In this document: one piece after another, positions 29,063 through 48,535 of the stretch
How positions within the stretch are numbered: position 1 is the stretch's first letter
How the letters are laid out: every line of letters starts with the position of its first letter
Origin: Burkholderiales bacterium 39-55-53
GTDB taxonomy: Bacteria; Pseudomonadota; Gammaproteobacteria; Burkholderiales; Burkholderiaceae_C
Length of the DNA stretch: 64,000 nt
Reading direction: 5' to 3'
Assembly: GCA_002282445.1 (NCBI GenBank)
Contig: NCJK01000007.1
Coordinates: forward strand, 106,332-170,331
The notes under the pieces: generated by a model
The model's input: the letters and a program-made list of their open reading frames with translations, nothing else
The model's database searches: none
What the model was told of the DNA's origin: nothing
Position numbers and translations under genes: made by a program

Positions 29063-29121
29063 GCGGGATTTATTCCCTACGAATTTTGAGTCGAACTGTC
29101 TAAATTAAGAACCATGTTTTG

Positions 29122-29136: not shown

Positions 29137-29167
29137 TCCTGTTTGGTTTCGATTTTGAAAAGTTCGT

Positions 29168-31519
29168 ATGCAAAAGCTTCGCCCCACATTAGTTTCATTG
29201 GCAGTTCTGGCTGTCTGTACAAGTACAGGAGCCCTGGCGCAAGCCGTTGATCAGCTGCCAGTGGTCACGGTTGTTGGCGCGATGCCAATTCCTGCCATTT
29301 CTCAGCCTTTGTCGGAGATTCCATCGGCCGTTCAAACAGCCAACAGCACGGATCTCGCGAATAGCCAAGCTTTGGATTTGTCTAGTTTCATGAACCAGCG
29401 CATGGGCGGTGTGTATGTGAACGAGGTGCAAGGAAACCCACATCAAATGGATGTGAACTACCGTGGCTTCACAGCCTCCCCTTTGCTTGGCACGCCTCAA
29501 GGCCTGTCTGTGTACATGGACGGTGTGCGCATGAACCAACCCTTTGGCGACGTGGTGAGCTGGGACTTAATTCCAAGATCCGCCATCAGCAACATGACTT
29601 TGATGCCTGGTTCTAACCCGTTGTTTGGCCTTAACACGCTGGGCGGCGCATTGGCTGTTCAAACTAAGTCCGGTCTCACGCATGCGGGTACTTCCATGCA
29701 AACCACGATCGGTTCGCACCAACGTCGTGCTGTCGAGTTGGAGCACGGCGGGCGCAATGACAAAGGCTTGCATTGGTTTGTCACGGGTAATGGGTTTAAC
29801 GAAGATGGCTGGCGCGATGCTTCGCCCTCACGCGTACGCCAAACCTTTGGCAAGCTGGGCTGGAAAGATGGCCCGACCGATGTCGCTTTGACGCTGAGCC
29901 ATGCCAACAACGCACTCACCGGAAACGGTCTGCAAGAACAGCGAATGCTCGCCAACGACTACCGCAGCATCTACACCAAACCCGACGAAACGCATAACCG
30001 GTCTACGTTGCTTAACCTCACGGGTAAGCATGTGATCAATGACAACACCTTGTTTGCTGGCAATGCGTATTACCGCTCGATCAGCACGCGAACGCTTAAT
30101 GGCGATGTGAATGACGACGCGTTGGAAACCGCTCAGGGCCTGTTGGGCGGCGGCGCATTTCCAAATTCCGCATGCCTTGCTGCTGCGGATGATGACGATG
30201 CAGAACCAGTTTGTACTGGCTTGCTCAATCGCAGCACAACCAAGCAAAAAAACTATGGTTTCTCAGGTCAAGTCACGTTGCTCGAAAAATTGGCGGGATA
30301 CAAGAATCAGTTCACCACGGGCCTTGCCTATGACACCAACCGCACTGACTTTAAACAGTCCAGTGAGTTTGGCTACATCAATCCAGACCGAAGCGTGACT
30401 GGCACACAAGTGTTTGCTGACGAGTTGGATCCGAATGTTCACTTGAAGGGCAAAGCCAGCACCTGGAGTGTGTTTGCCACGGACACCATTTCTTTGCATG
30501 ACCGTTGGCATGTGACGATGTCTGGGCGTTACAACCGCTCGCGCATCATCAACGAAGATCAAATTCTGCCAGGGGGTGGTGCGGGCTCATTAGATGGCAA
30601 CCATGTGTTCCAACGCTTCAATCCAGCAATCGGAACCACTTACGCTTGGACACCCGCACTCACAGCTTACCTGGGCTATAACGAAGGTAACCGCACGCCT
30701 ACCTCTATCGAGTTGGGTTGTGCCGACCCCGCCAATCCATGCAAACTGCCGAATGCAATGGCGGGCGATCCACCATTAAAGCAAGTGGTCACAAAAACAT
30801 GGGAAGCGGGTTTGCGTGGCGCACTATCTAAGCAAACGCATTGGACAGCTGGCCTGTTTCACGCACAAAGCACAGATGACATTTTGTTTGTCGCCGCGCC
30901 AGATGTCAGCTCATTTGGCTATTTCAAGAACTTCGGCAAGACACAGCGACAAGGCATAGAGCTGGGCTTGAATAGCCAGCAAGGGGCTTTCAAGTTTGCA
31001 ACTCACTACACATGGCTGCAAGCAACGTATCAAAGTAGTGAGGTGTTGGGTGGTGATTCAAACAGCACGAATACGGGTGGCAATATCGCTATTCAGCCAG
31101 GCAACACGATTCAGTTGACGCCTAAACACATTTTGAAAATTCATGCTGATTACGCTTGGTCGCCAGCGTGGAGCACAGGTCTGGGCATGACGGCGTTTAG
31201 CGGCGTGTATGCCCGTGGCAATGAGAACAACCAACACCAACCCGATGGTGATGAGCACTTAGGTTCGGGAAGAACGGCAGGTTATGCCGTGTTCAATGCG
31301 AACGCACGCTACGCCTCTAGCAAAAATACGCAATGGATGTTGAACGTGATGAACTTGTTCGATCGTCGTTATTCGACTGCCGGCCAGTTGGGGCCTGCTG
31401 CATTCAGCGCTAACGGGCAACAGTTTGTATCAAGCTCAACACGCGAGCAGCATTCGATGTCAGTCGCGCCCGGTGCACCACGCAGTGTGTGGCTGAGCAT
31501 GCGTCACAGTTTTAATTAA
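29168..31519 (+). CDS. TonB-dependent outer-membrane receptor
   Basis: 783 residues. Signal peptide MQKLRPTLVSLAVLAVCTSTGALAQ is followed by a plug domain (VDQLPVVTVVGAMPIPAISQPLSEIPSAVQ resembling a TonB box region, then LSSFMNQRMGGVYVNEVQGNPHQMDVNYRGFTASPLLGTPQGLSVYMDGVRMNQPFGD, GSNPLFGLNTLGGALAVQTKSG) and a 22-strand-type barrel. The ligand is not evident. It stands at the left edge of the PQQ/lanthanide locus and converges with the response regulator, their 3' ends overlapping by 8 nt. A siderophore-like or lanthanophore receptor is a reasonable guess, not shown by sequence. A short leader palindrome precedes it. Confidence 0.88.
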   Translation: MQKLRPTLVSLAVLAVCTSTGALAQAVDQLPVVTVVGAMPIPAISQPLSEIPSAVQTANSTDLANSQALDLSSFMNQRMGGVYVNEVQGNPHQMDVNYRGFTASPLLGTPQGLSVYMDGVRMNQPFGDVVSWDLIPRSAISNMTLMPGSNPLFGLNTLGGALAVQTKSGLTHAGTSMQTTIGSHQRRAVELEHGGRNDKGLHWFVTGNGFNEDGWRDASPSRVRQTFGKLGWKDGPTDVALTLSHANNALTGNGLQEQRMLANDYRSIYTKPDETHNRSTLLNLTGKHVINDNTLFAGNAYYRSISTRTLNGDVNDDALETAQGLLGGGAFPNSACLAAADDDDAEPVCTGLLNRSTTKQKNYGFSGQVTLLEKLAGYKNQFTTGLAYDTNRTDFKQSSEFGYINPDRSVTGTQVFADELDPNVHLKGKASTWSVFATDTISLHDRWHVTMSGRYNRSRIINEDQILPGGGAGSLDGNHVFQRFNPAIGTTYAWTPALTAYLGYNEGNRTPTSIELGCADPANPCKLPNAMAGDPPLKQVVTKTWEAGLRGALSKQTHWTAGLFHAQSTDDILFVAAPDVSSFGYFKNFGKTQRQGIELGLNSQQGAFKFATHYTWLQATYQSSEVLGGDSNSTNTGGNIAIQPGNTIQLTPKHILKIHADYAWSPAWSTGLGMTAFSGVYARGNENNQHQPDGDEHLGSGRTAGYAVFNANARYASSKNTQWMLNVMNLFDRRYSTAGQLGPAAFSANGQQFVSSSTREQHSMSVAPGAPRSVWLSMRHSFN

Positions 31520-32153
31520 GCACAGCATCAATCAACTGATGGCGTTGGGCCATATGGACCAACGCCGCTGTGTTGTTGACAGCAAGCTTTTCTTTGATTT
31601 GCGTTTGGTTATTGGCTACCGTTTTGAGGCTGATGTTCAAACGCTCAGCGCATTCCGCTGGCGTACAGCCTCGGGCCAGCAAGCGCCAAATTTCTAACTC
31701 GCGCAAAGTGAGTTGGGCAATGCGCTCGGCTTCGTCATCCGCCGCATGTTCGAATTGGTTGAGCGACAAGTCGTCGCTCAAATAGTGTTGCCCGTTGTGT
31801 GCGAACTTCACACCAGTGACCAAATTTTCGGGCGGAGAGTTTTTGGTCACAAACCCAATCGCCCCACCATCTAAAGCGCTGCGAACCAAGTTGCGGCCGT
31901 CGTACATGCTGCACATCAATACTTTGGCCTTGGCATCGCGCAGTTTGATTTTGCGTAGCAACTCAAGCCCCCCCACTGTGGGCATGGAAATGTCAGAGAT
32001 TGTTACGTCGGGTTGATGCTGCAAGTACGAGATGTAACCAGAGGTGGCGCAGCCTGCTTCGGCCACAACGGTGATGTCACCTTCTTGCTCTAGAAAGCGA
32101 GCGTAGCCTGCACGAACGACTGGGTGGTCATCGACCAATAAGACACGAATCAT
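31512..32153 (-). CDS. NarL/LuxR-type response regulator
   Basis: 213 residues: receiver domain (MIRVLLVDDHPVVRAGY, phospho-acceptor Asp54 in TISDISMPTVGG, Lys104 in GFVTKNS) and a C-terminal LuxR helix-turn-helix (LTLRELEIWRLLARGCTPAECAERLNISLKTVANNQTQIKEKL). Its start overlaps the sensor kinase stop by 4 nt. By context it resembles the ExaE/AgmR/PedR regulators that control PQQ-dependent alcohol oxidation in Pseudomonas, but which promoters it binds is not visible. Confidence 0.92.
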   Translation of the reverse strand: MIRVLLVDDHPVVRAGYARFLEQEGDITVVAEAGCATSGYISYLQHQPDVTISDISMPTVGGLELLRKIKLRDAKAKVLMCSMYDGRNLVRSALDGGAIGFVTKNSPPENLVTGVKFAHNGQHYLSDDLSLNQFEHAADDEAERIAQLTLRELEIWRLLARGCTPAECAERLNISLKTVANNQTQIKEKLAVNNTAALVHMAQRHQLIDAVLN

Positions 32154-33034
32154 GAAGTCACCTGCGTGATTGGAAGTTGTACGTGAATGCGAAGTCCGGG
32201 CTGTGCGTCTTCAAAATGAATGTGACCTTGCAAGCTGGCAATGCGTTCGCGCATGCCTGTGAGGCCAAGGCCGTGTGAGCCGCTTGGCGTTGGATGCAGA
32301 CCTTGCCCGTTGTCGGAGATGGAAAGAGTCAGCACATCCTGGCTGCCATTAAGACTGATCCAGACCTGGCTGGCGTTGGCATGTTTGGCGATGTTGGTCA
32401 ACGCCTCTTGGGTGACACGGTAAATGGTGGTGCTGAGTGCGTCTGGCAGATCATGCGGCAGCGCATTGATCAGTGTGTGACATTGGATGTGGCAGTGCTG
32501 TTCCCAACTGCTGCAAAGTTCTTTCAGACTTTCCTCAAGACCCAAACTGTCAAGGTTTGGGGGACGGAGGCGCTTGAGCATGTCACGCGCAAGGCTATGC
32601 ATGCGCAGCGAAGATTGGTCAATTCGCTTAGCGGATTCAAGTGCTGCGTTGGGGTTGTTGTGAATGGCTTTGCCAATATAGGCAGCCTCAATGCGGAGTG
32701 CTGTGCAGGCTTGACCTACTTCGTCATGCAACTCTTGGGCAAGGATGCGACGTTCATCTTCTTGTGCGCTGATCAAGCGCTGTGTGAGATGGCGGTTGGC
32801 TTCGAGTAGTGCAGACACTTCGTGCATGCGCTGAAATGCAAACCAAGCCAAGCCGAGAGACAAGGCCAACAGAGTCAAGGGGATTTCGTCCAACTGAAAA
32901 CGTTCATAACTTTGTAGCCAGTGTGCAAGCTTTTCTGATAGCTCCCACTGCATTGCCATAGTCCAAAACAACGCGACCACCACCAACACGCGAAGCAAGT
33001 CGCGCCAGGCGGGCGTTGTTATTTTGGGTGTCAT
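32150..33034 (-). CDS. NarX/UhpB-type sensor histidine kinase
   Basis: 294 residues. Two membrane segments (about residues 12-29 and 51-68) enclose a short periplasmic loop of about 22 residues rich in Glu and Asp (WELSEKLAHWLQSYERFQLDE). A HisKA_3 dimerisation domain follows with the phospho-accepting His103 in ERRILAQELHDEVGQACTALRIEA, and then the ATPase domain with ALTNIAKHANAS (N box), ISDNGQGL and GLGLTGMRERIASL. It has no large sensing domain, so the signal may come through the membrane segments, the acidic loop, or the co-transcribed cytochrome b561, whose gene overlaps this one by 4 nt. Confidence 0.9.
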   Translation of the reverse strand: MTPKITTPAWRDLLRVLVVVALFWTMAMQWELSEKLAHWLQSYERFQLDEIPLTLLALSLGLAWFAFQRMHEVSALLEANRHLTQRLISAQEDERRILAQELHDEVGQACTALRIEAAYIGKAIHNNPNAALESAKRIDQSSLRMHSLARDMLKRLRPPNLDSLGLEESLKELCSSWEQHCHIQCHTLINALPHDLPDALSTTIYRVTQEALTNIAKHANASQVWISLNGSQDVLTLSISDNGQGLHPTPSGSHGLGLTGMRERIASLQGHIHFEDAQPGLRIHVQLPITQVTS

Positions 33035-33594
33035 GGCAGCATTCGTTTGGCAATGCCATCTCGTCGCATCATGTGCAACACAGCTGCCAAGATGTGCACG
33101 GCAATCATCAGCATGAACAGGTAGCTACATGCCGTATGGATGCCACTAAATATCTCTTTCAAATCAGCCGAGGCTTCCCATAGTCTAGGGAGCGGTGTGC
33201 CAAAAAACTTGATAGGGTAGGCCGTGAAGCTAGACCCCAAAAATCCGCTCAAAGGCATAGCCACCATGCAGATGTAGAGCACGGCATGGCTGGTGTTTGC
33301 AGCCCATGTTTGCCACAGAGGCATGGAGTCTGGGAGTTCTGGGGGGCGATGCGTCAAACGCCAAAGTCCGCGCAACACAATGAGCAAGCCCAACACAATG
33401 CCAACAGATTTATGCCAGTTGAACCACTCCGCACGCAAGCCAGGTGGCGTTTTGGGGATGTCGCCCATCCACACGCCTAACCAGAGTTGGTAAATCAGGC
33501 CGATGGCCAGCAGCCAATGCAGGGCAATGGCAAGGCTTGTGTAGCGCGTAGGTGTCTCGACTGATTCAGCGACTTCTGCGTTGTTCTCTTCCAT
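33031..33594 (-). CDS. Cytochrome b561-type membrane protein
   Basis: 187 residues with four membrane segments and the histidines expected for two b-type hemes: IALHWLLAIGLIYQLWLG, FNWHKSVGIVLGLLIVLRGLWRLTHRPPELP, NTSHAVLYICMVAMPLSGFLGSSF, and HTACSYLFMLMIAVHILAAVLHMMRRDG. Such proteins pass electrons between the quinone pool and periplasmic partners. Here it is in an operon with a beta-propeller protein and a two-component system, which suggests an electron link or redox input for the alcohol-oxidation locus. Confidence 0.9.
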   Translation of the reverse strand: MEENNAEVAESVETPTRYTSLAIALHWLLAIGLIYQLWLGVWMGDIPKTPPGLRAEWFNWHKSVGIVLGLLIVLRGLWRLTHRPPELPDSMPLWQTWAANTSHAVLYICMVAMPLSGFLGSSFTAYPIKFFGTPLPRLWEASADLKEIFSGIHTACSYLFMLMIAVHILAAVLHMMRRDGIAKRMLP

Positions 33595-33607: not shown

Positions 33608-34555
33608 TCAGTTGGCAGCAGCGCCCCAAGGCAGCTTGCCTACCGGCACGGTGCTGATAGGCGTAAAGGTATGGGCGTCCACGACGGTCACGGCATGGCT
33701 GCGACCTGCAGCCACATACAGTTTGCTGCCATCAGGTGTGATGGCCATGTTCCATGGGCGCAAACCTACAGGCACTTTGGTGTGAACGGTGAAGCTTTGC
33801 GTGTCGATGACAGCCACATTGGCATCGCCCCCGTTGCTGGCAAACAACCACTTGCCGTTGGGGTGCATGGCCAAGCCGTTGGTGCGTGCGCCAACCGCCA
33901 GCGTCGATTTGACAGTGAGTTTTTGCATATCAATGGCAGCCAGCAAGCTGTCGTTTTCAACAGCGACATAAGCCATGTTGCCATCGGGGCTGAACGCGAT
34001 ACCGCGCGGACGATTCCCCACGCGAATGCTGGCAATTTGTTTGCGAGTTTTGAGGTCAAGTACGTCAACTTGATCGGCTTCTTCGGCGGACACCAACATG
34101 CGTTGGCCGTCAGGGCTGAACACCGCATGCTCTGGGTTCTTGCCTGAGACCACGATGTCAAACATCAGCTTCCACTCCGCGACAGAAACAAAGCTCACGC
34201 TGTTGCTGCCCTCATTGGCAATGGCCAGCCATGCGCCATCGGGTGAGCAATACACGGCCTCGGGCGAGTCGCCGAGTGTCAGCGTCTTGGCGATGTTGCC
34301 GGAGCGTGTGTGGATGGCTTGCAGTTGCGCGTCTTTTTGGTTGCTCACATACAAGTGCACATCGTTCTTGCACAAAGCCAAACCGCGTGGCTTGCCGCCC
34401 GTGACGATGGTTTGACTCACGACCTGCGTCTTTGCATCGATGACAGAAATATCAGCGCTGCCTTCGTTGGTGACAAAAACTTGGTCTGCACCAAACGCTG
34501 AAGATGCGACTGCGGCAAACAGACATAGGCTGGCAACACGGAGATGGATTTTCAT
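33608..34555 (-). CDS. Secreted YVTN-type beta-propeller protein
   Basis: 315 residues from ATG 34555 (MKIHLRVASLCLFAAVASSAFGADQ, a signal peptide). The mature part is made of about seven blades of 40 residues, each with the pattern VFVTNEGSADISVIDAKT, LYVSNQKDAQLQ, AYVAVENDSLLAAIDMQK, LFASNGGDANVAVIDTQS, LYVAAGRSHAVTVVDAHT. Proteins of this family occur in PQQ-dependent catabolic loci, where their role is unknown (perhaps a partner or chaperone of the quinoprotein). It sits between the PqqU-like receptor (35 nt upstream) and cytochrome b561 on the same strand. Confidence 0.88.
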   Translation of the reverse strand: MKIHLRVASLCLFAAVASSAFGADQVFVTNEGSADISVIDAKTQVVSQTIVTGGKPRGLALCKNDVHLYVSNQKDAQLQAIHTRSGNIAKTLTLGDSPEAVYCSPDGAWLAIANEGSNSVSFVSVAEWKLMFDIVVSGKNPEHAVFSPDGQRMLVSAEEADQVDVLDLKTRKQIASIRVGNRPRGIAFSPDGNMAYVAVENDSLLAAIDMQKLTVKSTLAVGARTNGLAMHPNGKWLFASNGGDANVAVIDTQSFTVHTKVPVGLRPWNMAITPDGSKLYVAAGRSHAVTVVDAHTFTPISTVPVGKLPWGAAAN

Positions 34556-34590
34556 GGGCGAATGAACTTCAGATGAAACGTATGAAACGC

Positions 34591-36723
34591 TTAGAGTGGA
34601 ATTTGACTTTGCACACCAATCACCCAAGAGCGGGGCAGGCCGGGTTCGAAGTATTGTTTAGAAAATTGGTTAATGATGACTGAGCCAACCGTGTCCTTGT
34701 CGGTTAAGTTGTCTACGCCCACAAAGGCTTCAACACGAGCGGAGCCGATTTGGTAGCGTTGACGAACGCGTGCATTAAGCAAGGTATGGCTAGGAGCCAA
34801 AGCGTAGTTTGCGCTGGTGGCAGTGTTCAAATCATTGGCCCACATACTCGACCGGTACACCACATCTAAGCCAGCCTCCAAGCCCATCTTGGGTTTTTGG
34901 CCTGCTTGCGCAAAACCTTTTTCAGACCATTGCACCGAGGCGAAGAGTTGCTGTTTTGGGATTGCAGGCAGGCTGTTGCCATTAGGTGGGCTGTAGCTTG
35001 CGCTCCCAGCTTGGTAGGTGGCATTGATCACTGAAGCCGAAGCTTGTGAACGCCAGTTGGATGTGTGTTGGTTGCGAATCGCCAACTCAAAACCGTCGCG
35101 TTTGGTTTGCGCGGCGTTGTCGTAGGCGGTTTTACCGTTGGAAGACAATGCCGCAACGATTTCGTTGGTCGTGTCAATTTGAAACCAAGCGGCATCAATT
35201 CTTGTGCTGGGTGTTGCCAACCATTTGGAGCCTATCTCTAAGTGCTTGCTGCGGGAAGCTTGCAAATTAGGATTGAACTTCTCAACAAAATTGTTGCTGC
35301 TGTCACGGGAGTAAGCGGCCTCAACCATGGTGGGCGTTTCAAAACCTTTACCTTGGTTGACGTACAGGTTTAGGTTGTCTTGTGCATGCCAAGTCAGGCC
35401 CAATACAGGACTGGTGGCTTTGTAGGTGACAGAGCCTGAACCATCAACTGGCGTGGGCAAGTCGTCTCGGCTTTTCAGTGTGACTTCGCTTTGGCGTGCG
35501 CCGGTGGTTAAGGTGTAGCGCTCGCTCAATGACCAGTTGGCTTGCGCAAAGTAATCGCGGTTGCTGGCTTCGTTGAGCTCGTTACGAGTGGGTGCGCCAG
35601 ATTTCTCGCCGGCTGAAGCAGTGCCTGCTTGGCGCTGTTCTTGCGCGTGATCAATGTCTGCGCCCACTACCCAGTTCATGGCTCGGCCATTTAATACAGA
35701 AGTTTTGCCATTCGCTTGCAAGCCGAAGCCTTCATACCTGCGCTCAAGTCCTGTCCAAGCATTGGTGGCTTGGTATTGCAAGTTACTGCGCGTGCCGCCG
35801 TAAATTCTGGCTTGTAGCTTGAGGTCGCTGTTCACGCGGTGCTCAGCCACAGCTCCAACTTGTTCTTGCTTGACCGTTTTACGTGTTCTGCGTTCAATCG
35901 CATTAGTTCCAGCTCGTGAAGGATCTAATGCCAGTTGTGCCGCAGTCAGCCCCAGAGGATCGTTCGCGATGGGCATATCAAAAATATTCACGATGAACTT
36001 GAAGCGCGTGTCGGGCTTGGCATCAACCGTAATAACGCTGTTGAGCTGCTTGCGTTCAGCCGAGCTATTGGCCCGATAGCCATCAATTGAGAAAGTACTG
36101 TAGTCAGCCACTAGTCCAACATTGCCAGAGCGTTGGCTAATTTGCCAATCAGTGCGTTGTAATCCAAACGAGCCCGAGTACAAACTTACCTGCGCTTCTG
36201 GTTTGTCACCGGCTTCACGCGTAAAGGTTTGAATCACACCACCGGAGGCATTGCCATACAGCTGCGCTAGTGGGCCAGTCAGAACTTCCATGCGGTCAGC
36301 AGAAGTCATGCTCACGGTCGATGCTTGGCCTTGACCATCAGGCATCGATGCTGGAATGCCATCGGTAATGAGGCGGATGCCGCGCATGCCAAACGCAGCG
36401 CGTGACCCAAACCCACGAATTGAAATTTGCACATCTTGTGCATAGTTGTTGCGGTTGAGCGCCACCACGCCTGGTGCGCGGTTAAGCACATCGGAAATGT
36501 TCACTTGCGGACCCGAGTTGCGCAGGGTGTCAGCATCGATGGTGTAGACCGATGCTGGCGCATCAAATTGCTTTTGTTCCAAACGCCCGCTTTGCACAAT
36601 GATTTCTTTCAAATCATTGCTGGTAGTTTGCGCATACAGGCCCGAGCTAGGGAAAACGCTGAGGCAAAGAAGCGCGCCGACGGTCAGTGCGTGATGGGGG
36701 GTGTTGCTTTTGTGAAATTTCAT
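34591..36723 (-). CDS. TonB-dependent receptor, YncD/PqqU-like (probable PQQ importer)
   Basis: 710 residues from ATG 36723 (MKFHKSNTPHHALTVGALLC, signal peptide). The plug includes DLKEIIVQSGRLEQKQFDAP (TonB box region), ISDVLNRAPGVVALNRNN, and the stretch GIRLITDGIPASMPDGQGQAST, which closely resembles, from memory, E. coli YncD (PqqU), the outer-membrane importer of pyrroloquinoline quinone; QLYGNASGGVIQTFTREAG continues the likeness. A 22-strand barrel follows. It heads the operon receptor - beta-propeller - cytochrome b561 - kinase - regulator, with a sigma54-like element upstream (36775-36790). No pqq biosynthesis genes are in the window. An alignment to YncD and other receptors would settle the ligand. 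Confidence 0.85.
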   Translation of the reverse strand: MKFHKSNTPHHALTVGALLCLSVFPSSGLYAQTTSNDLKEIIVQSGRLEQKQFDAPASVYTIDADTLRNSGPQVNISDVLNRAPGVVALNRNNYAQDVQISIRGFGSRAAFGMRGIRLITDGIPASMPDGQGQASTVSMTSADRMEVLTGPLAQLYGNASGGVIQTFTREAGDKPEAQVSLYSGSFGLQRTDWQISQRSGNVGLVADYSTFSIDGYRANSSAERKQLNSVITVDAKPDTRFKFIVNIFDMPIANDPLGLTAAQLALDPSRAGTNAIERRTRKTVKQEQVGAVAEHRVNSDLKLQARIYGGTRSNLQYQATNAWTGLERRYEGFGLQANGKTSVLNGRAMNWVVGADIDHAQEQRQAGTASAGEKSGAPTRNELNEASNRDYFAQANWSLSERYTLTTGARQSEVTLKSRDDLPTPVDGSGSVTYKATSPVLGLTWHAQDNLNLYVNQGKGFETPTMVEAAYSRDSSNNFVEKFNPNLQASRSKHLEIGSKWLATPSTRIDAAWFQIDTTNEIVAALSSNGKTAYDNAAQTKRDGFELAIRNQHTSNWRSQASASVINATYQAGSASYSPPNGNSLPAIPKQQLFASVQWSEKGFAQAGQKPKMGLEAGLDVVYRSSMWANDLNTATSANYALAPSHTLLNARVRQRYQIGSARVEAFVGVDNLTDKDTVGSVIINQFSKQYFEPGLPRSWVIGVQSQIPL

Positions 36724-36774
36724 GGTTCGCGCAGTTTGCAAAGTTTGATGAATCAGTTGTCTCTTAAATTGGAT

Positions 36775-36790
36775 AGCAAAACCCATTCCA
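36775..36790 (-). promoter_or_regulatory. Possible sigma54 promoter of the PqqU-like operon
   Basis: Minus strand TGGAATGGGTTTTGCT has GG-N10-GC and the TTGC -12 box, about 50 nt from the receptor ATG. Such a match is expected by chance about once per few hundred bases, so it is only suggestive. Confidence 0.35.
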
Positions 36791-36812
36791 CCCAAAAGTG
36801 TTCCATGGACGA

Positions 36813-36828
36813 TGGCATCGTTCGTGCT
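36813..36828 (+). promoter_or_regulatory. Possible sigma54 promoter of nosR-like/apbE
   Basis: TGGCATCGTTCGTGCT keeps TGGCA and GG-N10-GC, but the -12 box is GTGC rather than TTGC. It lies about 47 nt before the NosR-like start in the divergent spacer 36724-36874. Confidence 0.4.
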
Positions 36829-36874
36829 ACTTCAGTTCTATTCAGAAACTAGGTGTACCAAGGTTGATCAATTG

Positions 36875-39010
36875 ATGGTTCGTGTGATGACGCATCTTCT
36901 AACAAGCGTGATGGTGTTTCTCTCAGGGTTGTTCCTGATGAGCGCCCATGCCGGCGTGATGACTCGTGAGGCGATGGAGCAGGTGTTCCCAGCGCCTTTG
37001 GTGGTGGGTGAGAAAGACCGCGATTTGCCTGTGTGGCCGATTTTTCGGCAAGAGCTCACGTCCACCACGATTGCTGCCTATGCCTTTGAATCACAAGACT
37101 TCGCCAGCATTCCCGGCTTTTCAGGCACGCCATTTAATTTGCTGATTGCGTTGGACCCCAATGGGCAGTTCATGGATGTGCGTGTGCTGTCACATCATGA
37201 GCCAGTTTTTTTGGAGGGGTTGGGCGAGAAACCGTTGTTTGCATTTGTTGAGCAGTACAAAGACTTGTCTTTGAAGCAGAGCATCAAGATCGGTACTGGT
37301 CAAAGCAAGAGTGGCAAAGAGACGGGGGCCAATGTCTATATTGATGGCGTGACCAAGGCCACAGCCTCTGTGCGCATCCTGAACCAGACGCTGTTGGCGG
37401 CTTCGCTGAAGGTGGCACGTGCCAAGTTGGGTTACAGCGAAGGACGCGACCCAGACCAGATTGCTAAAGTTCGGCCCGATGTGTTTAAGTCCATGGATTG
37501 GGCTGGCTTGCGCAAAGCAGGCTTGATACATCAAGCGACATTCAAGAACCGTGATGTCGAGAAAGCTTTCAAAGACACGGCCGGTGAGGGTGTGGACGAC
37601 CAAGCTTTACAGCAGCCCAACGAGGTGTTTGCCGATGTGTATGTCGCCCACTTAAGCGTGCCAACGGTTGGTAAAAACCTGTTGTCCGCCGACAAATGGG
37701 CTTATTTGCAGCAACGACTTGACCCGGGGGACCATGCCCTGCTGATTCTGGCCAAAGGCAGGTACGCATTGATGGGGGAGGACTTTGTACGCGGCACGGT
37801 CCCTGATCGTGTGTCGCTGAATCAGCAAAAGTTACCCATCGAAATACGCGATCTAGATTTGGACGTGGCTCTGAATTTGCCGCCCGAATTGGCTGATGCG
37901 CAATGGTTGGCGGTGCGCGTGATCGCCCCCGCAGGCCTAGACCCCGCACAGGCGTTGAGCTATGAATTGCATGTCACGCGCAGCAAAGGCATGTTGTTTC
38001 CGGAGTTGGTGACCAAGAGTTTTGCCATCGCGGCTGAGCTGCCACACGACTATGTGGAGATGGCAGAGTCAGATCAAAAGACTTGGCATGGCATTTGGTT
38101 GGATCGTTGGTGGGAGCTGGCCGTGTTGCTCTGTGCCTTGGCCGTGTTGGTGTGGGCGTTGCGTGAACCGCCTTGGCTGGTGAAACATCCGCAGCGCATG
38201 GCTTGGTTTCGGCGTGGTTATTTGTTGTTCACTTTGTGTTTCATCGGCTGGTTTGCGCAGGGACAGTTGTCTATCGTGAACCTGACGGCGGTGGTGCAGG
38301 CTGCTGTGGCGGGGCAGAGCCTTGAGTTTTTCATGTACGACCCCATGACGGTGGTGTTGTGGGTGTTTGTGGCCTTCACCTTTTTTGCGTGGGGTCGTGG
38401 CACTTTTTGCGGATGGCTCTGCCCGTTTGGTGCGTTGCAAGAGTTGATCAGCCAGATCACCCAGCGCTTGGGCTTGGCTTGGCGGCGGGTCCCGCAGCGT
38501 TGGGACACGCAGCTGAAAAAGTTGAAATACGTCGTACTTGCTGGTCTGCTCATGAGTGCTGCCGTGTCAGTGACTTGGACCGACCGACTGGTCGAAATTG
38601 AGCCCTTCAAAACCAGCATCACGCTTAATTTTGTGCGTGCTTGGCCGTTTGTGCTGTGGGCTGTGGCGATGGTGTTTTTAAGCGCATTTGTGTACAAGGG
38701 CTATTGCCGTTATCTGTGTCCCTTGGGGGCAGGTATGGGCGTCTTGGGCAAACTGCGCCGTTGGGATTGGATTACGCGTCGCAGCGAATGTGGACAGCCT
38801 TGTCAGCGCTGCCGCAACGATTGCGCGTATCAGGCCATCGACAAGCAAGGCGCGGTGGATTACGACGAGTGTTTCCAGTGCATGGATTGCGTGGTGATTT
38901 ACGAGAGTGACAGTTTGTGTGTCCCACGTATTCTGGAGGCGCGAGAGCAACGCGCCGTCATTCCAATTCAAGCGGTCGTCGCTGATGCGGCAGACAAGGG
39001 GCAGAAATGA
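36875..39010 (+). CDS. NosR/NirI-like flavinylated membrane protein with 4Fe-4S clusters
   Basis: 711 residues from ATG 36875 (ATG 36887 is an alternative). After a signal/membrane anchor comes a periplasmic FMN-binding domain with the ApbE target site DGVTKATAS, in which Thr163 should carry FMN covalently. A further periplasmic domain ends near residue 400; about five membrane segments carry two CxxxCP motifs (FCGWLCPFGALQE, YCRYLCPLGAG), and the C-terminus holds polyferredoxin motifs CGQPCQRCRNDC and CFQCMDC. The family moves electrons from quinol or cytoplasmic donors to periplasmic acceptors; NosR serves nitrous-oxide reductase. No nos genes are here; the neighbours are apbE and a PQQ alcohol dehydrogenase. 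Confidence 0.9.
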   Translation: MVRVMTHLLTSVMVFLSGLFLMSAHAGVMTREAMEQVFPAPLVVGEKDRDLPVWPIFRQELTSTTIAAYAFESQDFASIPGFSGTPFNLLIALDPNGQFMDVRVLSHHEPVFLEGLGEKPLFAFVEQYKDLSLKQSIKIGTGQSKSGKETGANVYIDGVTKATASVRILNQTLLAASLKVARAKLGYSEGRDPDQIAKVRPDVFKSMDWAGLRKAGLIHQATFKNRDVEKAFKDTAGEGVDDQALQQPNEVFADVYVAHLSVPTVGKNLLSADKWAYLQQRLDPGDHALLILAKGRYALMGEDFVRGTVPDRVSLNQQKLPIEIRDLDLDVALNLPPELADAQWLAVRVIAPAGLDPAQALSYELHVTRSKGMLFPELVTKSFAIAAELPHDYVEMAESDQKTWHGIWLDRWWELAVLLCALAVLVWALREPPWLVKHPQRMAWFRRGYLLFTLCFIGWFAQGQLSIVNLTAVVQAAVAGQSLEFFMYDPMTVVLWVFVAFTFFAWGRGTFCGWLCPFGALQELISQITQRLGLAWRRVPQRWDTQLKKLKYVVLAGLLMSAAVSVTWTDRLVEIEPFKTSITLNFVRAWPFVLWAVAMVFLSAFVYKGYCRYLCPLGAGMGVLGKLRRWDWITRRSECGQPCQRCRNDCAYQAIDKQGAVDYDECFQCMDCVVIYESDSLCVPRILEAREQRAVIPIQAVVADAADKGQK

Positions 39011-40008
39011 AGCGCCGTCAATTCATTCAGTCCAGTCTGGGTAGCGGTTTGCTATTTGCGGCCCATGACGCCGTACAGGGTGCTATGCCTGCCAGCAGCC
39101 TGCATTGGAGGGACACCATATTTGCCGGTTTGGGTACAACCTTGTCGATTCGTGCGGCACATGCTGATGCCCAAGCTTTGGCGCTGGCGCTGCAGCGTGC
39201 TCGGCAGGTGGTTGCGCATGTAGAAGATGAAATGAGTTTGTTCCGCCCCAACAGCAAGCTTAGCCAACTCAATCAAACCGGTGTGTTGCACCGTCCATCG
39301 CCAGCGTTGTTGCACGTGTTGCAACTGAGCCAGCGTGTCGCGCAGCAAAGTCGCGGTGCTTTTGATGTGACCGTGCAGCCGCTGTGGCAGCTCTACGCAC
39401 AGGCAAATCAAGGTGGCCGGTTGCCTCGGCCCGAGGAGGTGGCCAAGGCGCAGAGATCCGTGGGGTGGCAACATCTACAAGTTAACGAGACTCAGGTCAC
39501 TCTGGCCAAGCCCGGGATGGGCGTGTCTTTGAATGGCGTGGCCCAAGGTTATGCCGCAGATTTGGTGCGTGCGAGTTTGAGCCGCGATGGTGTGGCGCAC
39601 GCCTTGATTAACACGGGAGAGTGGTCATCGATTGGATCAGCCGATGGCCAGCGCCCATGGATTTTGGGTGTTTCCGATCCCCGTGCAGCAGACCAATGGC
39701 TGGCGCGGGTGGTCATGAACGGTTTGAGTATTGCCACATCGGCGGATGACCAATGCACTTTCAGTGATGACCGCAAGCACCATCACATTTTCAATCCTCA
39801 CACAGGCTATTCGCCGCTAGACATTGCCAGTGTCACCGTGGCCGCCTCGACCTGTGCGATGGCAGATGCTTTGACCAAGGTGCTATTTGTAGGCGGGTAC
39901 GAGCGTTCGTTACAGATTGCCAAGAGCTGGGGCGTTTCCGCACTGGTTGTTCATAAGAACGGGGAATGGAAGGCATCTCATTCGTTCCCTCGTGTTGCAG
40001 GGTCATGA
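39007..40008 (+). CDS. apbE: FAD:protein FMN transferase (ApbE/NosX-like)
   Basis: Periplasmic enzyme that attaches FMN to a Thr of target proteins; the target is surely the NosR-like protein whose stop it overlaps (ATGA). 333 residues with signal sequence MKRRQFIQSSLGSGLLFAAHDAVQG (twin-arginine-like). Motifs: VEDEMSLFRPNSKLSQLN, GAFDVTVQPLWQLYA, VSLNGVAQGYAADLV. Two departures: the usual Asn-x-Gly-Gly-Asp region reads LINTGEWSSIG, and the usual H-x-x-D-P-x-T-G metal-site motif reads HIFNPHTGYSP, with Asn for Asp. Activity is still likely, since the target site and gene coupling are intact. Confidence 0.9.
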   Translation: MKRRQFIQSSLGSGLLFAAHDAVQGAMPASSLHWRDTIFAGLGTTLSIRAAHADAQALALALQRARQVVAHVEDEMSLFRPNSKLSQLNQTGVLHRPSPALLHVLQLSQRVAQQSRGAFDVTVQPLWQLYAQANQGGRLPRPEEVAKAQRSVGWQHLQVNETQVTLAKPGMGVSLNGVAQGYAADLVRASLSRDGVAHALINTGEWSSIGSADGQRPWILGVSDPRAADQWLARVVMNGLSIATSADDQCTFSDDRKHHHIFNPHTGYSPLDIASVTVAASTCAMADALTKVLFVGGYERSLQIAKSWGVSALVVHKNGEWKASHSFPRVAGS

Positions 40009-40023
40009 TGTGCAACAACGCAC

Positions 40024-40040
40024 TGTTCCAAAAGTGAACA
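40024..40040. promoter_or_regulatory. 17-bp dyad upstream of PQQ dehydrogenase (candidate activator site)
   Basis: TGTTCCAAAAGTGAACA; with two further bases on each side the arms ACTGTTC and GAACAGT are perfect complements. It lies 116 nt upstream of the sigma54 -24 element, a normal enhancer distance. Related 17-mers occur at 43299 and 47933. It could alternatively act as the apbE terminator, but there is no T-run. Confidence 0.5.
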
Positions 40041-40156
40041 GTTGTCACAGTTGCATGTCACATGCTTGGGTTGATATGCCCAGCTTAAGCAAGGGTAATT
40101 ACTGAGATTGGGATGAATTCCCGTGATGAATTTAAGGAGTCTCATTGGTGACGAGT

Positions 40157-40172
40157 TGGCATGTGTATTGCA
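40157..40172 (+). promoter_or_regulatory. Sigma54 promoter of the PQQ alcohol dehydrogenase
   Basis: TGGCATGTGTATTGCA differs from the consensus TGGCACG-N4-TTGCA at one position. It lies 110 nt before the GTG start; transcription should begin near 40184. The 273-nt gap 40009-40281 also holds direct repeats TGTCACA at 40044 and 40056 and the dyad at 40024. Confidence 0.75.
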
Positions 40173-40281: not shown

Positions 40282-42021
40282 GTGAAAAGAAAACTTCTAA
40301 GCGTGCTCGTCATACTCGCCACGGCGGATGCAACGGCCCAAGTTACCGACGCCATGATTGCCAAGGATGCAGCCGATACAGAATCTGTGTTGAGCTGGGG
40401 TATGGGCACACAAGGTCAGCGTTTTTCGCCCTTGAGCACCATCAACACCAAAAACGTCAACAAACTCGTGCCCGTGTGGTCGATGTCCTTTGGTGGCGAG
40501 AAACAGCGCGGCCAAGAATCTCAGCCCTTGGTTCACAAAGGCAAGATGTTTGTCACGGCTTCCTATTCACGCATTTTTGCAGTGGACGTGAAGACTGGTC
40601 AAAAGCTGTGGAAGTATGAACACCGTCTGCCAGAAGGCATCATGCCTTGCTGCGACGTGATTAACCGTGGCGCTGCCCTGTATGACAACTTGGTGATCTT
40701 CGGTACTTTGGATGCGCAGTTGGTCGCCTTGGATCAAAACACCGGCAAAGTGGTGTGGCGTGAAAAAATTGAAGACTACACCGCAGGTTACAGCTACACA
40801 GCTGCACCTTTGATTGCTGAAGGCATGTTGCTCACCGGCGTTTCAGGTGGCGAATTTGGTGTGGTGGGTCGTGTGGATGCGCGCGATCCAAAGACCGGCA
40901 AGTTGCTGTGGACACGTCCTACCGTTGAAGGCCACATGGGCTACAAAGACGGCAAAGAAAACGGCATCAGTGGCACAACCAACGCCACATGGCCGGGTGA
41001 GACATGGAAGACCGGTGGTGCTTCTACTTGGTTGGGCGGCTCATATGATGCCTCCACTGGCTTGGCTTACTTCGGTACAGGCAACCCCGGCCCATGGAAC
41101 AGCCACGTGCGTAAAGGCGACAACTTGTATTCATCGTCCACCGTGGCGATCGATGTCAAGACTGGCAAGATTGCATGGAGCTACCAAAACACGCCCAACG
41201 ACGCTTGGGACTTTGATGGTGTGAACGAGTTCGTGACCTTCGACATGGACGGCAAGCGCGTCGGTGGCAAGGCTGACCGCAACGGCTTCTTCTACGTCAA
41301 CGATGCCAAGACCGGCAAGCTCATCAATGCCTTCCCATTTGTGAAGAAAGTCACATGGGCTTCGAGCATTGACATCAAAACAGGTCGCCCTGTATTTGAT
41401 CCGGCCAACCGTCCTGGCGATCCAACGGCAAGCGCCGATGGCAAGAAGGGTTCATCAGTCTTTGCAGCTCCTGGCTTCTTGGGTGGCAAGAACCAAATGC
41501 CAATGGCCTACAGCCCCAAGACACAAATGTTCTACGTGCCTACCAACGAGTGGGGCATGGACATTTGGAACGAACCCATCAGCTACAAAAAAGGCGCTGC
41601 CTACTTGGGCGCTGGCTTCACTATGAAGCCTTTGTTTGACGATCACATTGGCTCCTTGCGCGCCATCGATCCAAAGACAGGCAAAGTGGCTTGGGAAGTT
41701 AAGAACAACGCACCTTTGTGGGGTGGTGTGCTGACAACCGCTGGCGATTTGGTGTTCTGGGGTACGCCTGAGGGTTACCTCAAAGCAGCAGATGCTAAAA
41801 CAGGCAAAGTGTTGTGGCAGTTCCAAACAGGTTCTGGTGTGGTGGCTCCTCCCATCACTTGGAACGATGGCGCTGACCAATACGTGAGCGTTGTTTCTGG
41901 CTGGGGCGGTGCTGTGCCACTGTGGGGTGGTGAAGTGGCCAAAAAAGTCAACTTCCTCGAACAAGGTGGTTCTGTTTGGACTTTCAAAATCCCATCGTCA
42001 ACCAATGTGGCTTCCAAGTAA
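40282..42021 (+). CDS. PQQ-dependent alcohol dehydrogenase, lanthanide-type (ExaF/PedH/XoxF-like)
   Basis: Periplasmic quinoprotein that oxidises primary alcohols and passes electrons to cytochrome c. 579 residues, GTG start with AGGAG 7 nt upstream, signal peptide ending near TATAQ. The eight-bladed propeller shows its tryptophan-docking repeats ([40 protein letters not shown]). Active-site features: vicinal disulfide Cys123-Cys124 (IMPCCDV), metal ligands Glu191 (SGGEFG) and Asn268 (GTGNPGPWN), catalytic Asp310, and Asp312 in WDFDGVNE. The second Asp is diagnostic of lanthanide rather than calcium enzymes (Ala or Ser there). No heme domain is fused; cytochromes are encoded downstream. XoxF versus ExaF/PedH cannot be decided without a tree. 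Confidence 0.93.
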
Positions 42022-42108: not shown

Positions 42109-42447
42109 ATGAAAAAAATCACATTCTTATTAATGATGTCTGCAGCGCATGTGGCGTTTGCATCCCCCGCGCTCAGCGCAAAAGAAGCAGCGGCAGCTGC
42201 AGAATTGGCCAAAAGCAGCGGTTGTATGAGTTGTCATGCACTCGATGAAAAAATCGTAGGCCCCGCCTATTCCAAAGTGGCCGCCAAGTACAGCGCAGAT
42301 GCTGATGCCGCCGTGTCATTGGCGCAATCCATCCGCAATGGTTCAGCTGGCAAATGGGGTCGTATTCCGATGCCTGCTCATGGAACGATGAATCAAGAAG
42401 ACATCAACTTACTGGCGCGTTGGGTGTTAACGATCAAAGGTAATTGA
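42109..42447 (+). CDS. Small periplasmic cytochrome c (c551/c552-like)
   Basis: 112 residues with signal peptide MKKITFLLMMSAAHVAFASPALS. Class I cytochrome c: heme site CMSCH, then VGPAYSKVAAKYSADADAAVSLAQSIRNGSAGKWG, axial Met in RIPMPAHG, and C-terminal helix NLLARWVLTI. Its position right after the dehydrogenase makes it the likely direct electron acceptor, as XoxG or ExaB are for their enzymes. Its TGA shares one base with the next ATG. Confidence 0.92.
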   Translation: MKKITFLLMMSAAHVAFASPALSAKEAAAAAELAKSSGCMSCHALDEKIVGPAYSKVAAKYSADADAAVSLAQSIRNGSAGKWGRIPMPAHGTMNQEDINLLARWVLTIKGN

Positions 42448-43265
42448 TGAATTTAAAGCGCTTGGTCCAGCGACACCTTGCATGGTTGTTAGGTGTGATC
42501 GTTGCATCAAGTGCTTTTGCGCAAGACAGTGATCGCCAAGACTGGCTGCGCAATCCTGCTATGGGCAACTACAAGGCTTATGCAGAATTCAAAATGACGA
42601 ATTACGCCAAGGCCCGTGAGGTCTGGGAAACCTTGGCTGAAGTTGGCAATGGCGATGCCTTATTTAACTTGGGTGTCATGGCCGAAGATGGCTTGGGTGA
42701 GCCAAGAAACATGGCCAAAGCCGAAGCGCTTTACACCAGTGCAGCCAATGGCAATAACTTCAAGGCGCAATACCGCTTGGGTCTGCTTTACAGCGCCGGT
42801 GGTTTGCTTAATAAAGATGTTCAAAAAGCGCGTGTGTATTTGAGTCAAGCTGCGCGTCATGGTGACAAAGATGCCGTGTCGTTGTTGGCGCAGCTCAGTG
42901 ATGTATCACAACCACCTACGCCACTACAGCAAGCAGATTTACTCAGCGCACAAGGACAGCATATAGATGCGGCCAAGCTCTACAGCGCGCTGGCTGATAC
43001 AGGAGATGCCACAGCACAAACCCGTTTGGCATGGATGTATGAGGCCGGCCGAGGTGTGCCCCAGGACTTGGGTGAGGCTGCGAGACGCTTTGAAATTGCA
43101 GCCAACTCAGGCCATGCAGAAGCGCAGTATGCGCTGGCTGTGATGTTGCGCACAGGCCGTGGACGCGTGCGTGATGATGCACAAAGTTTGATGTGGCTTA
43201 AACGTTCTGCGGAACAAAACTATCCATCTGCAGTTGCCGCGGCACATTCATTGCAAGACCTATGA
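42447..43265 (+). CDS. Periplasmic Sel1-repeat protein
   Basis: 272 residues from ATG 42447 with signal peptide MNLKRLVQRHLAWLLGVIVASSAFAQ. At least five Sel1-like repeats of about 36 residues are seen (ALFNLGVMAEDGLGEPRNMAKAEALYTSAA, AQYRLGLLYSAGGLLNKDVQKARVYLSQAA, AQTRLAWMYEAGRGVPQDLGEAARRFEIAA, AQYALAVMLRTGRGRVRDDAQSLMWLKRSA). These alpha-solenoids bind other proteins; a role as scaffold or maturation helper of the dehydrogenase is an inference from the translationally coupled cytochrome gene. Confidence 0.85.
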   Translation: MNLKRLVQRHLAWLLGVIVASSAFAQDSDRQDWLRNPAMGNYKAYAEFKMTNYAKAREVWETLAEVGNGDALFNLGVMAEDGLGEPRNMAKAEALYTSAANGNNFKAQYRLGLLYSAGGLLNKDVQKARVYLSQAARHGDKDAVSLLAQLSDVSQPPTPLQQADLLSAQGQHIDAAKLYSALADTGDATAQTRLAWMYEAGRGVPQDLGEAARRFEIAANSGHAEAQYALAVMLRTGRGRVRDDAQSLMWLKRSAEQNYPSAVAAAHSLQDL

Positions 43266-43425: not shown

Positions 43426-44946
43426 ATGATTTACGCAAACCCAGGCGCTGCTGGCGCAAAAGTGCAATACAAAGCTCACTACGACAACTTCATCGGTGGC
43501 AAATTTGTGGCCCCAGTAGATGGGCAATATTTTGATGTGATCACGCCGATCACGGGTAAGGTCTACACCAAGGCCGCTCGCTCAGGCGCAAAAGACATTG
43601 ACTTGGCTTTGGATGCTGCACACAAAGCAGCTGATGCATGGGGTAAGACATCTCCCACAGAGCGCGCCAACATTTTGTTGAAAATCGCAGACCGCATCGA
43701 AGCCAACCTCGAAATGTTGGCTTACGCTGAAACCGTGGACAACGGCAAAGCCATTCGCGAAACACTCAATGCCGACATTCCATTGACTGTGGACCACTTC
43801 CGTTACTTCGCTGGCTGCGTGCGCGCACAAGAAGGCGCGTTGTCAGATATCGACGAAAACACCGTGGCTTACCACTACCACGAGCCTCTGGGCGTGGTCG
43901 GTCAAATCATTCCTTGGAACTTCCCCATTTTGATGGCCGCATGGAAATTGGCCCCTGCTTTGGGCGCTGGTAATTGCGTGGTGTTGAAGCCCGCGGAGTC
44001 CACACCTATTTCCATCTTGGTGATGGCTGAGCTGATCGCCGACTTGCTGCCACCAGGTGTCTTGAACATCGTGAACGGATATGGTCGTGAAGCCGGCATG
44101 CCATTGGCCACCAGCAAGCGCATCGCCAAGATCGCGTTCACAGGCTCCACCACCACAGGCCGCGTGATTGCACAAGCTGCTGCAAACAATCTGATTCCTG
44201 CCACACTGGAATTGGGCGGCAAGTCGCCCAACATCTTCTTTGCCGACATCATGGACAAGGACGATGGTTTCTTTGACAAAGCCATTGAAGGCTTGGTGCT
44301 ATTTGCATTCAACCAGGGCGAGGTGTGTACATGCCCATCACGCGCCTTGATTCAAGAAAGCATCTATGACAAGTTTATGGAGCGCGTGCTGAAGCGCGTG
44401 GCTGCCATCAAGCACCAAAACCCATTGGATACGGACAGCATGATGGGAGCACAGGCTTCTAAAGAACAGCTGACCAAAATCTTGTCCTATCTCGAATTGG
44501 GCAAAGAAGAAGGGGCGGAAGTATTGGCCGGTGGCGCACAAGCCCATCTGGGTGGTGACCTCGAAGGCGGCTACTACGTGCAGCCCACCATGTTCAAGGG
44601 CCACAACAAAATGCGCATCTTCCAAGAAGAAATCTTCGGCCCCGTGTTGGCTGTGACGACCTTCAAAGACGAAGCCGAAGCCTTGGCTATCGCCAACGAC
44701 ACGCTCTACGGTTTGGGTGCTGGTGTGTGGAGCCGTAACGGCAACGTGGCCTACCGTATGGGTCGCGCCATCAAGGCAGGTCGCGTATGGACCAATTGCT
44801 ACCACGCCTACCCAGCACATGCTGCGTTCGGCGGCTACAAAGAGTCTGGCATTGGCCGTGAAACACACAAAGTCATGCTCGACCACTACCAACAAACCAA
44901 GAACTTGTTGGTCAGCTACAGCGAAAGCAAGTTGGGTTTCTTCTAA
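43426..44946 (+). CDS. NAD-dependent acetaldehyde-type aldehyde dehydrogenase (AcoD/ExaC/PedI-like)
   Basis: Oxidises the aldehyde made by the alcohol dehydrogenase to the acid in the cytoplasm. 506 residues with the ALDH motifs [48 protein letters not shown] (catalytic Glu), the nucleophile Cys in [13 protein letters not shown], and [13 protein letters not shown]. The N-terminus ([31 protein letters not shown]) and tail ([13 protein letters not shown]) are those of the acetaldehyde dehydrogenase group found next to DUF779 genes and an AcoR-type activator, precisely the layout here. Confidence 0.95.
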
Positions 44947-45018: not shown

Positions 45019-45396
45019 ATGGTTGAACGTGTCGTCGCTACGCCAGAGGCTTTGGCTCTCATTGAAGAGATGAAGTCTCTACATGGAGAGGTTCTGTTTC
45101 ATCAGTCAGGTGGCTGCTGCGATAACAGTGCTGCTAACTGTTATCTTCCTTCCGATCTCACGATTGGCCCTTATGACGTGAACCTCGGTGACGTAGGTGG
45201 CGTGCCTTTTTACATTGGCAAACTGCAATACGAGTATTGGAAACATACGCAGCTGATATTGGATGTGATTGAAGGAACGGGTGGAACCTTTTCATTAGAA
45301 GGGAACACAGGGAAAGCTTTTCATACGAGATCAAGGCTGTTTACTGATGATGAGTGGGCGCAAATCGAGCATCTTGTGGAGAAAGATCTTTCTTGA
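45019..45396 (+). CDS. DUF779 protein, copy 1
   Basis: 125 residues, good ribosome site AAGGAG. DUF779 proteins are small, of unknown function, and typically adjacent to acetaldehyde/alcohol dehydrogenases. The conserved cysteine cluster GGCCDNSAANCYLP suggests metal or redox binding. The second copy downstream is the same length and about 71% identical by an ungapped count. Read-through from the aldehyde dehydrogenase promoter is the only evident source of transcript. Confidence 0.9.
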   Translation: MVERVVATPEALALIEEMKSLHGEVLFHQSGGCCDNSAANCYLPSDLTIGPYDVNLGDVGGVPFYIGKLQYEYWKHTQLILDVIEGTGGTFSLEGNTGKAFHTRSRLFTDDEWAQIEHLVEKDLS

Positions 45397-45418
45397 TACT
45401 TAATCGAACGGAGCACAT

Positions 45419-45796: not shown

Positions 45797-45802
45797 TTCA
45801 AA
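45787..45802. repeat. 16-bp perfect palindrome spanning two convergent stop codons
   Basis: TTTGAATTAATTCAAA supplies ...Leu-Asn-TAA to both DUF779 copy 2 (plus strand) and the AcoR-like gene (minus strand). There is no room for a terminator between them, so the two transcripts must overlap. Confidence 0.8.
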
Positions 45803-48525: not shown

Positions 48526-48535
48526 GGAGCACACT

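Follow-up and report, generated by a model that had tools for sequence, protein, structure and literature searches.

A NosR-like flavoprotein and its ApbE partner in company with lanthanide-type PQQ alcohol dehydrogenases and PedF: a candidate accessory redox relay

What does a flavoprotein of NosR design do when it stands, with its own flavin transferase, in an alcohol-oxidation locus? The question is raised by a stretch of 64,000 nucleotides from Burkholderiales bacterium 39-55-53 (contig NCJK01000007.1; hereafter the window), in which a NosR-like gene and an apbE gene lie between the operon of a PqqU-like receptor and a lanthanide-type pyrroloquinoline quinone (PQQ) dehydrogenase. An initial annotation had placed the pair there as part of an alcohol-oxidation module, and our analysis agrees. 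We put a probability of roughly 55% on the reading that the two proteins form a transmembrane redox relay, accessory to the module of lanthanide-type PQQ dehydrogenase and cytochrome PedF and devoted to it; such a relay is most likely quinone-linked and built on flavin and iron-sulphur centres. Electron passage between membrane and periplasm, among the roles first suggested, stays the best reading. The pair is laid out as follows (window coordinates; FMN, flavin mononucleotide; FAD, flavin adenine dinucleotide):

36875 to 39010, + strand: NosR-family flavoprotein with predicted periplasmic FMN domain, middle periplasmic domain, membrane part with two CxxxCP motifs, and C-terminal polyferredoxin
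37361 to 37363, + strand: codon of the expected FMN acceptor threonine (T184 of the long frame, T163 counted from Met22)
38408 to 38425, + strand: first CxxxCP (C533, C537), by alignment
38705 to 38722, + strand: second CxxxCP (C632, C636), by alignment
38789 to 38920, + strand: eight polyferredoxin cysteines, C660 to C703, by alignment
39007 to 40008, + strand: ApbE, FAD:protein FMN transferase (PF02424 at 4.8e-65)

The full NosR design and the dedicated flavin transferase were both upheld, the domains by Pfam, the threonine and twelve cysteines by alignment, and ApbE by PF02424. The NosR-like gene is intact in an open frame of 732 amino acids (36812-39010); within it Met22, at 36875 and followed by a signal-like stretch, is the likely start and a better one than 36812, as had been proposed, and apbE overlaps the gene by 4 bases. 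Pfam recorded FMN_bind at 22.6 bits (cut-off 22) and Fer4_5 at 57.8 bits in two stretches, and the sequence features of the NosR/NirI superfamily are present: the FMN domain with its acceptor threonine, two CxxxCP motifs and the eight-cysteine polyferredoxin. Across 78 aligned homologues (four short rows, L078, L080, L083 and L084, omitted), the twelve cysteines, in two CxxxC-P motifs and two four-cysteine groups, were fully conserved (1.00) in all three groups compared, while T184, the acceptor threonine, stood at 96, 90 and 90% or more; threonine and cysteines were invariant in a second alignment of 52 clade rows. Because these residues are conserved, the protein can safely be read as one that passes electrons through FMN and iron-sulphur clusters. 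The motif and the pairing with ApbE point to covalent FMN on the threonine, and the sidedness of the domains is presumably that of NosR. The protein matched the NosR equivalog model NF046105 at 604.1 bits over residues 48-710, under the cut-off of 1000 bits, and judged by sequence it is not canonical NosR. Its predicted structure was only fair (mean predicted local distance difference test score 70.9, predicted template-modelling score 0.53); the best PDB match of that model was RnfG at E 1.3e-3, with nothing else convincing among the best 50 rows and no match at E<=0.001, and phmmer returned 0 matches to PDB sequences at E<=1.

The 2.56-Mb host genome, whose completeness is rated 100%, holds no second NosR homologue, which leaves the NosR-like protein as the sole one. 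That nosZ is absent had been noted from the window, and TIGR04244 found no match in the genome at E<=0.001 (the clade II NosZ model was not part of this search), so no NosZ was found for the pair to serve. A propeller protein encoded at 33608-34627 was ruled out as a clade III L-NosZ (77.5 of 700 bits). With no NosZ match and a single NosR homologue, we rejected a nos function for the pair.

If the pair does not serve NosZ, which lineage of the family does it belong to? A scan of genome contigs yielded 53 loci, mostly from Burkholderiales; it rested on one protein and so favours close kin, for which an evenly drawn phylum sample served as correction. A tree of 88 rows, again without the four short ones, put 72 rows on one side with a Shimodaira-Hasegawa-like approximate likelihood ratio test (SH-aLRT) support of 100; the fetched flank of 62 of these 72 contains one ped marker or more, and 15 of the 16 rows outside are nos-linked. 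Adding 40 loci from the even phylum sample and dropping, by choice, 25 near-duplicate loci gave a tree of 103 rows. Here the clade comprised 68 rows (SH-aLRT 100), of which 51 carry a ped marker and not one is nos-linked; the other 35 were made up of 31 nos-linked and four NirI-type rows. The NirI-type rows (L126 and L193-L195) grouped with the NosR side; nirS was recognised by Pfam in L195 only and by reading in the others. Both are quick LG+G4 trees with SH-aLRT as the only support, with long branches at L077, L075 and L180 and one pair of identical rows (L064, L097), and the single-clade result rests on a sample drawn with one query. On this sequence evidence, the NosR-like protein sits in a distinct clade, apart from nos-linked NosR and from the NirI-type rows.

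Two refuting outcomes had been set beforehand: nos genes elsewhere with the pair as their only NosR, and a lack of co-occurrence with PQQ loci in other genomes. Neither was seen, and the co-occurrence proved very strong. Among 36 genomes searched (host not included), all 15 clade genomes have a dehydrogenase of at least 60% identity, as does one of the 21 whose members are NosR/NirI-side only (G338, another of the 21, has a 45% match); PedF was likewise found in 15/15 against 1/21. Both counts include seven clade genomes that lack a ped marker in the fetched flank. The phylum sample comprised 398 genomes, 66 with a NosR homologue (1e-30) and 35 with PedF (1e-8); PedF was present in 16 of 16 clade-placed genomes and 19 of 382 others (Fisher p 3e-19, a value that ignores kinship). 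Placement on the tree covered 38 of the 66 genomes, the remaining 28, all below 390 bits, being unplaced; G481 and G405 each had one match placed and another left unplaced. The 16 lower-scoring placed genomes (15 from 401 bits down, together with G070) all fell on the nos or nir side. In a family sample of 150 genomes, nine carry a clade homologue, namely the host and others at 39-64% identity, and a PQQ dehydrogenase match (1e-30) occurred in all nine against 53 of the 141 others. PedF (1e-15) was found in 5 of 5 genomes with the close type (>=53%) and in 6 of the 9 carriers overall. G052 alone of the nine has NosZ, and it also has a canonical NosR of its own.

The surroundings of the pair in the window are in keeping with such a module, and comprise:

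31512 to 33034, - strand: response regulator and histidine kinase (profile searches)
33031 to 33594, - strand: cytochrome b561 (profile searches)
33608 to 34627, - strand: YVTN propeller resembling the PQQ_ABC type, PedA2-like (235 of 287 bits, under the model cut-off)
34591 to 36795, - strand: PqqU-like TonB-dependent receptor (352-354 bits to solved YncD/PqqU)
40282 to 42021, + strand: PQQ alcohol dehydrogenase with W-D-F-D (D310, D312), lanthanide type by motif
42109 to 42447, + strand: small cytochrome c (profile searches)
42444 to 43265, + strand: Sel1-repeat protein (Pfam)
43426 to 44946, + strand: aldehyde dehydrogenase (Pfam)
45019 to 45796, + strand: two DUF779 genes (45019-45396 by Pfam match, 45419-45796 a similar sequence by reading)
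45793 to 47823, - strand: AcoR-like sigma54-dependent activator with GAF and Fis domains (Pfam)
48034 to 48525, + strand: PedF-type cytochrome c (Pfam; annotated PedF in relatives)
48416 to 49417, + strand: PedG-like periplasmic substrate-binding protein (SBP), true start probably further in (Pfam)

An aspartate two residues past the catalytic aspartate is the mark of lanthanide-dependent PQQ dehydrogenases. The window enzyme follows this rule (D310-F-D312), and 52 of 54 dehydrogenases carry the +2 aspartate and are thereby lanthanide type by motif.

Searched with tblastn, 59 close loci, many of them on short contigs, gave these counts: ApbE 55, PQQ dehydrogenase 42, sigma54 activator 38, PedF 37, PedG 33, PedA2 propeller 30, PqqU-like receptor 28 and PedA1 14. 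As controls, 11 canonical NosR loci of the same family had NosD and NosZ in 11/11 each, and none had a ped marker. The arrangement is tightest in L057, L060, L066 and L076, where dehydrogenase, PedG, PedF, NosR-like protein, ApbE, PedB, PedA2, PedA1 and PedC follow one another on one strand, with the NosR-like gene embedded between PedF and PedB-A2-A1-C; the PqqU-like receptor heads this order in three of the four, and a 156-amino-acid frame separates PedF from the NosR-like gene in L057 and L060. Similar neighbours, with PedF annotated, appear in plasmid records of Variovorax, Methylorubrum, Leisingera, Shinella, Pseudosulfitobacter, Sulfitobacter, Phaeobacter and Ruegeria. In Aquabacterium PedF adjoins the pair and the dehydrogenase lies about 7.5 kb past ApbE; in Azoarcus KH32C neither PedF nor dehydrogenase lies near it. 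Of the 59 clade loci with wide flanks (7.5 kb one way, 5 kb the other), 46 showed a ped marker. The basal gammaproteobacterial members of the clade (L156, L158, L160, L162, L163, L165) are without ped genes nearby, and the neighbours at some non-ped loci, one or two each by Pfam, are unrelated (TetR, TauE, MFS, CheW, aminotransferase and CMD among them). As a separate observation, four Roseobacter plasmids (L116, L118, L119, L121) carry a three-gene set of the xanthine dehydrogenase family between the NosR-like/ApbE pair and PedG/PedF, with a CoxG-like gene inside that stretch in two of the four; this set is possibly the aldehyde step.

Does the flavoprotein then carry the electrons of alcohol oxidation outwards from the enzyme? 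Meheust et al. (2021; PMC8238504) proposed that the flavoprotein fills a role held by cytochrome c in other microbes, which here would mean a flow from reduced PQQ through FMN to the electron transport chain, replacing or beside cytochrome c. We regard this as a minority possibility, though the best placed of the alternatives. That the dehydrogenase is the commonest close marker, with 23 same-strand matches no more than 1.5 kb away from the pair in a set of 90 clade loci, speaks for it, as does one sublineage of the family sample (G019, G092, G110; loci L098, L101, L102) that has no PedF match at 1e-15. In these three genomes the best dehydrogenase match reaches only 43-45% identity, and near L098 and L102 Pfam finds no cytochrome among the 10 proteins given; the sublineage fits the cytochrome-substitute model there, and is the place where the flavoprotein might stand in for cytochrome c. 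Elsewhere PedF accompanies the clade (all clade genomes of the phylum sample and all close ones of the family sample), so replacement of the cytochrome fails in most carriers; a second route beside it may still exist. The window locus itself holds both the PedF-type and a second cytochrome c. Given the redox potentials of covalent FMN and 4Fe-4S clusters, the path would moreover run uphill from PQQH2. Gene content thus weighs against the flavoprotein in the cytochrome c role, except perhaps in that sublineage.

The same gene content suggests an accessory: the clade gene is nearly always found with the dehydrogenase and PedF, yet 19 of the 35 PedF genomes of the phylum sample are without a clade member found, so the gene is not needed for turnover in general. 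In the relay we favour, ApbE would attach FMN to the threonine of the periplasmic domain, as motif and gene pairing suggest, and electrons would, by analogy with NosR, pass between that FMN in the periplasm and either the quinone pool or 4Fe-4S clusters on the cytosolic side. The periplasmic partner may be the dehydrogenase, PedF or PedG, to judge from gene linkage and co-occurrence. Gene content shows that in nearly all carriers it works alongside cytochrome PedF and does not replace it. We lean slightly towards a reductive direction, into the periplasm, since NosR has been proposed to work in this direction and since carriers of the module can dispense with the gene; injection of electrons would then activate or reset the PQQ enzyme.

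Several points weigh against the relay. Those 19 PedF genomes do without the clade gene, 13 of the 59 wide-flank clade loci have no ped marker nearby, and the sublineage just described lacks a PedF match. The associations with exaA arose several times according to PMC8238504, where our sample gives a single clade, and our literature search found no biochemistry on this NosR-like protein. Nor are we aware of any reason why an oxidising enzyme should require electrons to be fed in.

Three sites may bear on regulation:

40022 to 40042, no strand assigned: inverted repeat ACTGTTC/GAACAGT, seen by eye, about 115 bases before the sigma54-like site
40157 to 40172, + strand: sigma54-like site with 1 mismatch, beginning 125 bases before the dehydrogenase start
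47968 to 47983: sigma54-like site, beginning 66 bases before the PedF gene

The initial annotation gave the pair a sigma54-like promoter. A site is indeed present at 40157-40172, but by its position it belongs to the dehydrogenase and not to the NosR-like/ApbE pair. The three closest relatives (L032, L033, L068) have like sites before both dehydrogenase and PedF, and neither they nor the window have one before the NosR-like gene; a sigma54 promoter of that gene itself was accordingly rejected. A looser pattern, for which a chance rate was not computed, picked out a site ahead of the dehydrogenase at 7 of 17 scanned loci and ahead of PedF at 8 of 12; of 18 loci scanned for the NosR-like gene, one (L081) has such a site in front of it. 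Across the window, allowing up to 2 mismatches gives no more matches than chance would (67 found, 77.7 expected), so it is place and conservation that speak for the site at 40157-40172. The inverted repeat is a possible binding site of the AcoR-like activator. A sigma54 activator beside so many of the close loci (38 of 59), and the regulatory part of NosR in Paracoccus (PMC7660919), could suggest that the protein is a redox sensor with transcriptional control over the alcohol genes, the kind of role that NosR has been given too. We consider this improbable: profile searches found no DNA-binding domain in the NosR-like protein, the window's two-component genes are no constant neighbours of the pair in relatives, and a chain of twelve cysteines seems, in our opinion, more than sensing needs.

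Might the pair instead reduce imported PQQ or a metal complex in the periplasm, in the service of the TonB receptor or of a lanthanide transporter? The NosR-like gene is divergent from the PqqU-like receptor, and PedB or PedC adjoins the pair in several loci. For PqqU, PMC12124388 names 11-12 PQQ-contact residues; of the nine used for comparison, seven are identical in the receptor, K274, R304 and R365 among them, and R536 and N477 are replaced by Lys and Val. Model NF041535 gave it 446 of 1200 bits, short of the cut-off. No PqqE over cut-off was found in the host genome, where the whole-genome search for PQQ genes covered pqqE only; the top weak match (1.1e-11) is probably MoaA. The match to PqqU and the seven of nine contacts kept make it likely that this receptor imports PQQ; its genome having no PqqE over cut-off, the host has the look of a PQQ scavenger. 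As a role for the pair, such reduction is nevertheless very unlikely. The PqqU-like receptor (28) and PedA1 (14) fall below the alcohol dehydrogenase (42) and PedF (37) in the 59 close loci, several carriers have pqq genes near the pair, and absence of PqqE is not significantly enriched (4/6 against 8/29, p 0.15, hand counts). We therefore rejected PQQ scavenging as the common denominator of the carriers. The suggestion that a metal chelator is kept reduced gained no specific support; that PQQ or the enzyme is kept so is conceivable.

The locus occupies a variable site. Synteny with the congener G080 reaches window position 29078 and then breaks off (29078-29168, within the fetched stretch), and G080 has no match for the NosR-like gene, dehydrogenase or PedF. 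A second TonB receptor at 29168-31519 adjoins the response regulator; it is 83% identical in L032 and 33-34% in L033 and L068, and so varies faster than the rest of the locus. At the other end, two tyrosine recombinase-like genes (52481-53497 and 53529-54689; by reading) lie just past pntAB-like genes and are possibly an island edge mark. Beyond them, at 54975-57659, a long protein rich in Ala, Thr and Val with GGxGNDxI-like repeats resembles, by reading, a calcium-binding surface protein.

How does the favoured relay compare with known systems? The initial annotation knew of no described role of this kind, a claim that the literature does not support. An association of flavinylated NapH-like proteins with exaA is already known by computation: PMC8238504 reports such clusters with an ethanol oxidase in 172 genomes and proposes a role for them. 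Like the present pair, they combine an FMN-binding domain on a NapH-like membrane iron-sulphur protein, apbE and an exaA-type dehydrogenase. Here, in contrast, one supported clade holds the sampled ped-linked members, where several origins were published; few carriers lack PedF, and the motif marks the dehydrogenases as lanthanide type. As far as the available text of that paper goes, the single dedicated clade in our sample, the steady company of PedF, the lanthanide-type dehydrogenases and the optional use are new, and coexistence with PedF together with optional use is not seen stated there. Among the matches listed in the one library searched, no other literature dealt with a NosR-type/ApbE protein and lanthanide dehydrogenases.

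With NosR of nitrous oxide respiration the protein shares the domain order, the acceptor threonine, all twelve cysteines and the NF046105 match; it differs in its 30-33% identity over long matches to canonical NosR of the same family, its own clade, a host without a NosZ match, and an ApbE gene that adjoins it, where in the annotated nos loci examined ApbE comes after nosL. NosR function is itself described as not well understood, with both regulation in Paracoccus and electron donation to NosZ ascribed to it (PMC7660919). NirI shares the NosR family and, in the NirI-type loci L126 and L193, an ApbE match nearby, but its rows group with NosR, not with this clade. The Pseudomonas putida ped cluster (PedF, PedG, PedH, PedA1A2BC) offers a much alike set of neighbours (PMC12997753, PMC6839425); the word flavin is absent from the available texts of both papers, and nosr from that of PMC6839425. 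The electron route past PedF in P. putida lanthanide alcohol oxidation is said to be unknown (PMC12997753), and the clade would add a part to this machinery.

The closest comparison for the accessory profile is PceC/RdhC, likewise an FMN-Thr membrane flavoprotein that is accessory and optional, although its partner is a corrinoid reductase and we liken the two by description, not by alignment. PceC is 50 times scarcer than PceA and missing from many organohalide-respiring bacteria, which its authors say challenges their own earlier model of PceC as the link between quinol pool and PceA (PMC10624902). A NosR branch bound to an oxidising enzyme is a clean test of conduit against maintenance device: main electron conduits would be expected to replace the cytochrome, maintenance devices to be optional and to coexist with it, and gene content favours coexistence and optional use. 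We offer tentatively, as an idea more doubtful than the relay itself, that this NosR branch arose to serve lanthanide PQQ dehydrogenases reductively, bringing quinol electrons to the periplasm, alongside the normal cytochrome route, so that the PQQ enzyme is activated or reset; NosR, NirI, PceC and the present clade might then have one general task in common, which is, as proteins of low abundance, to inject electrons that keep cofactor enzymes of the periplasm in working order, and not to carry the main respiratory current.

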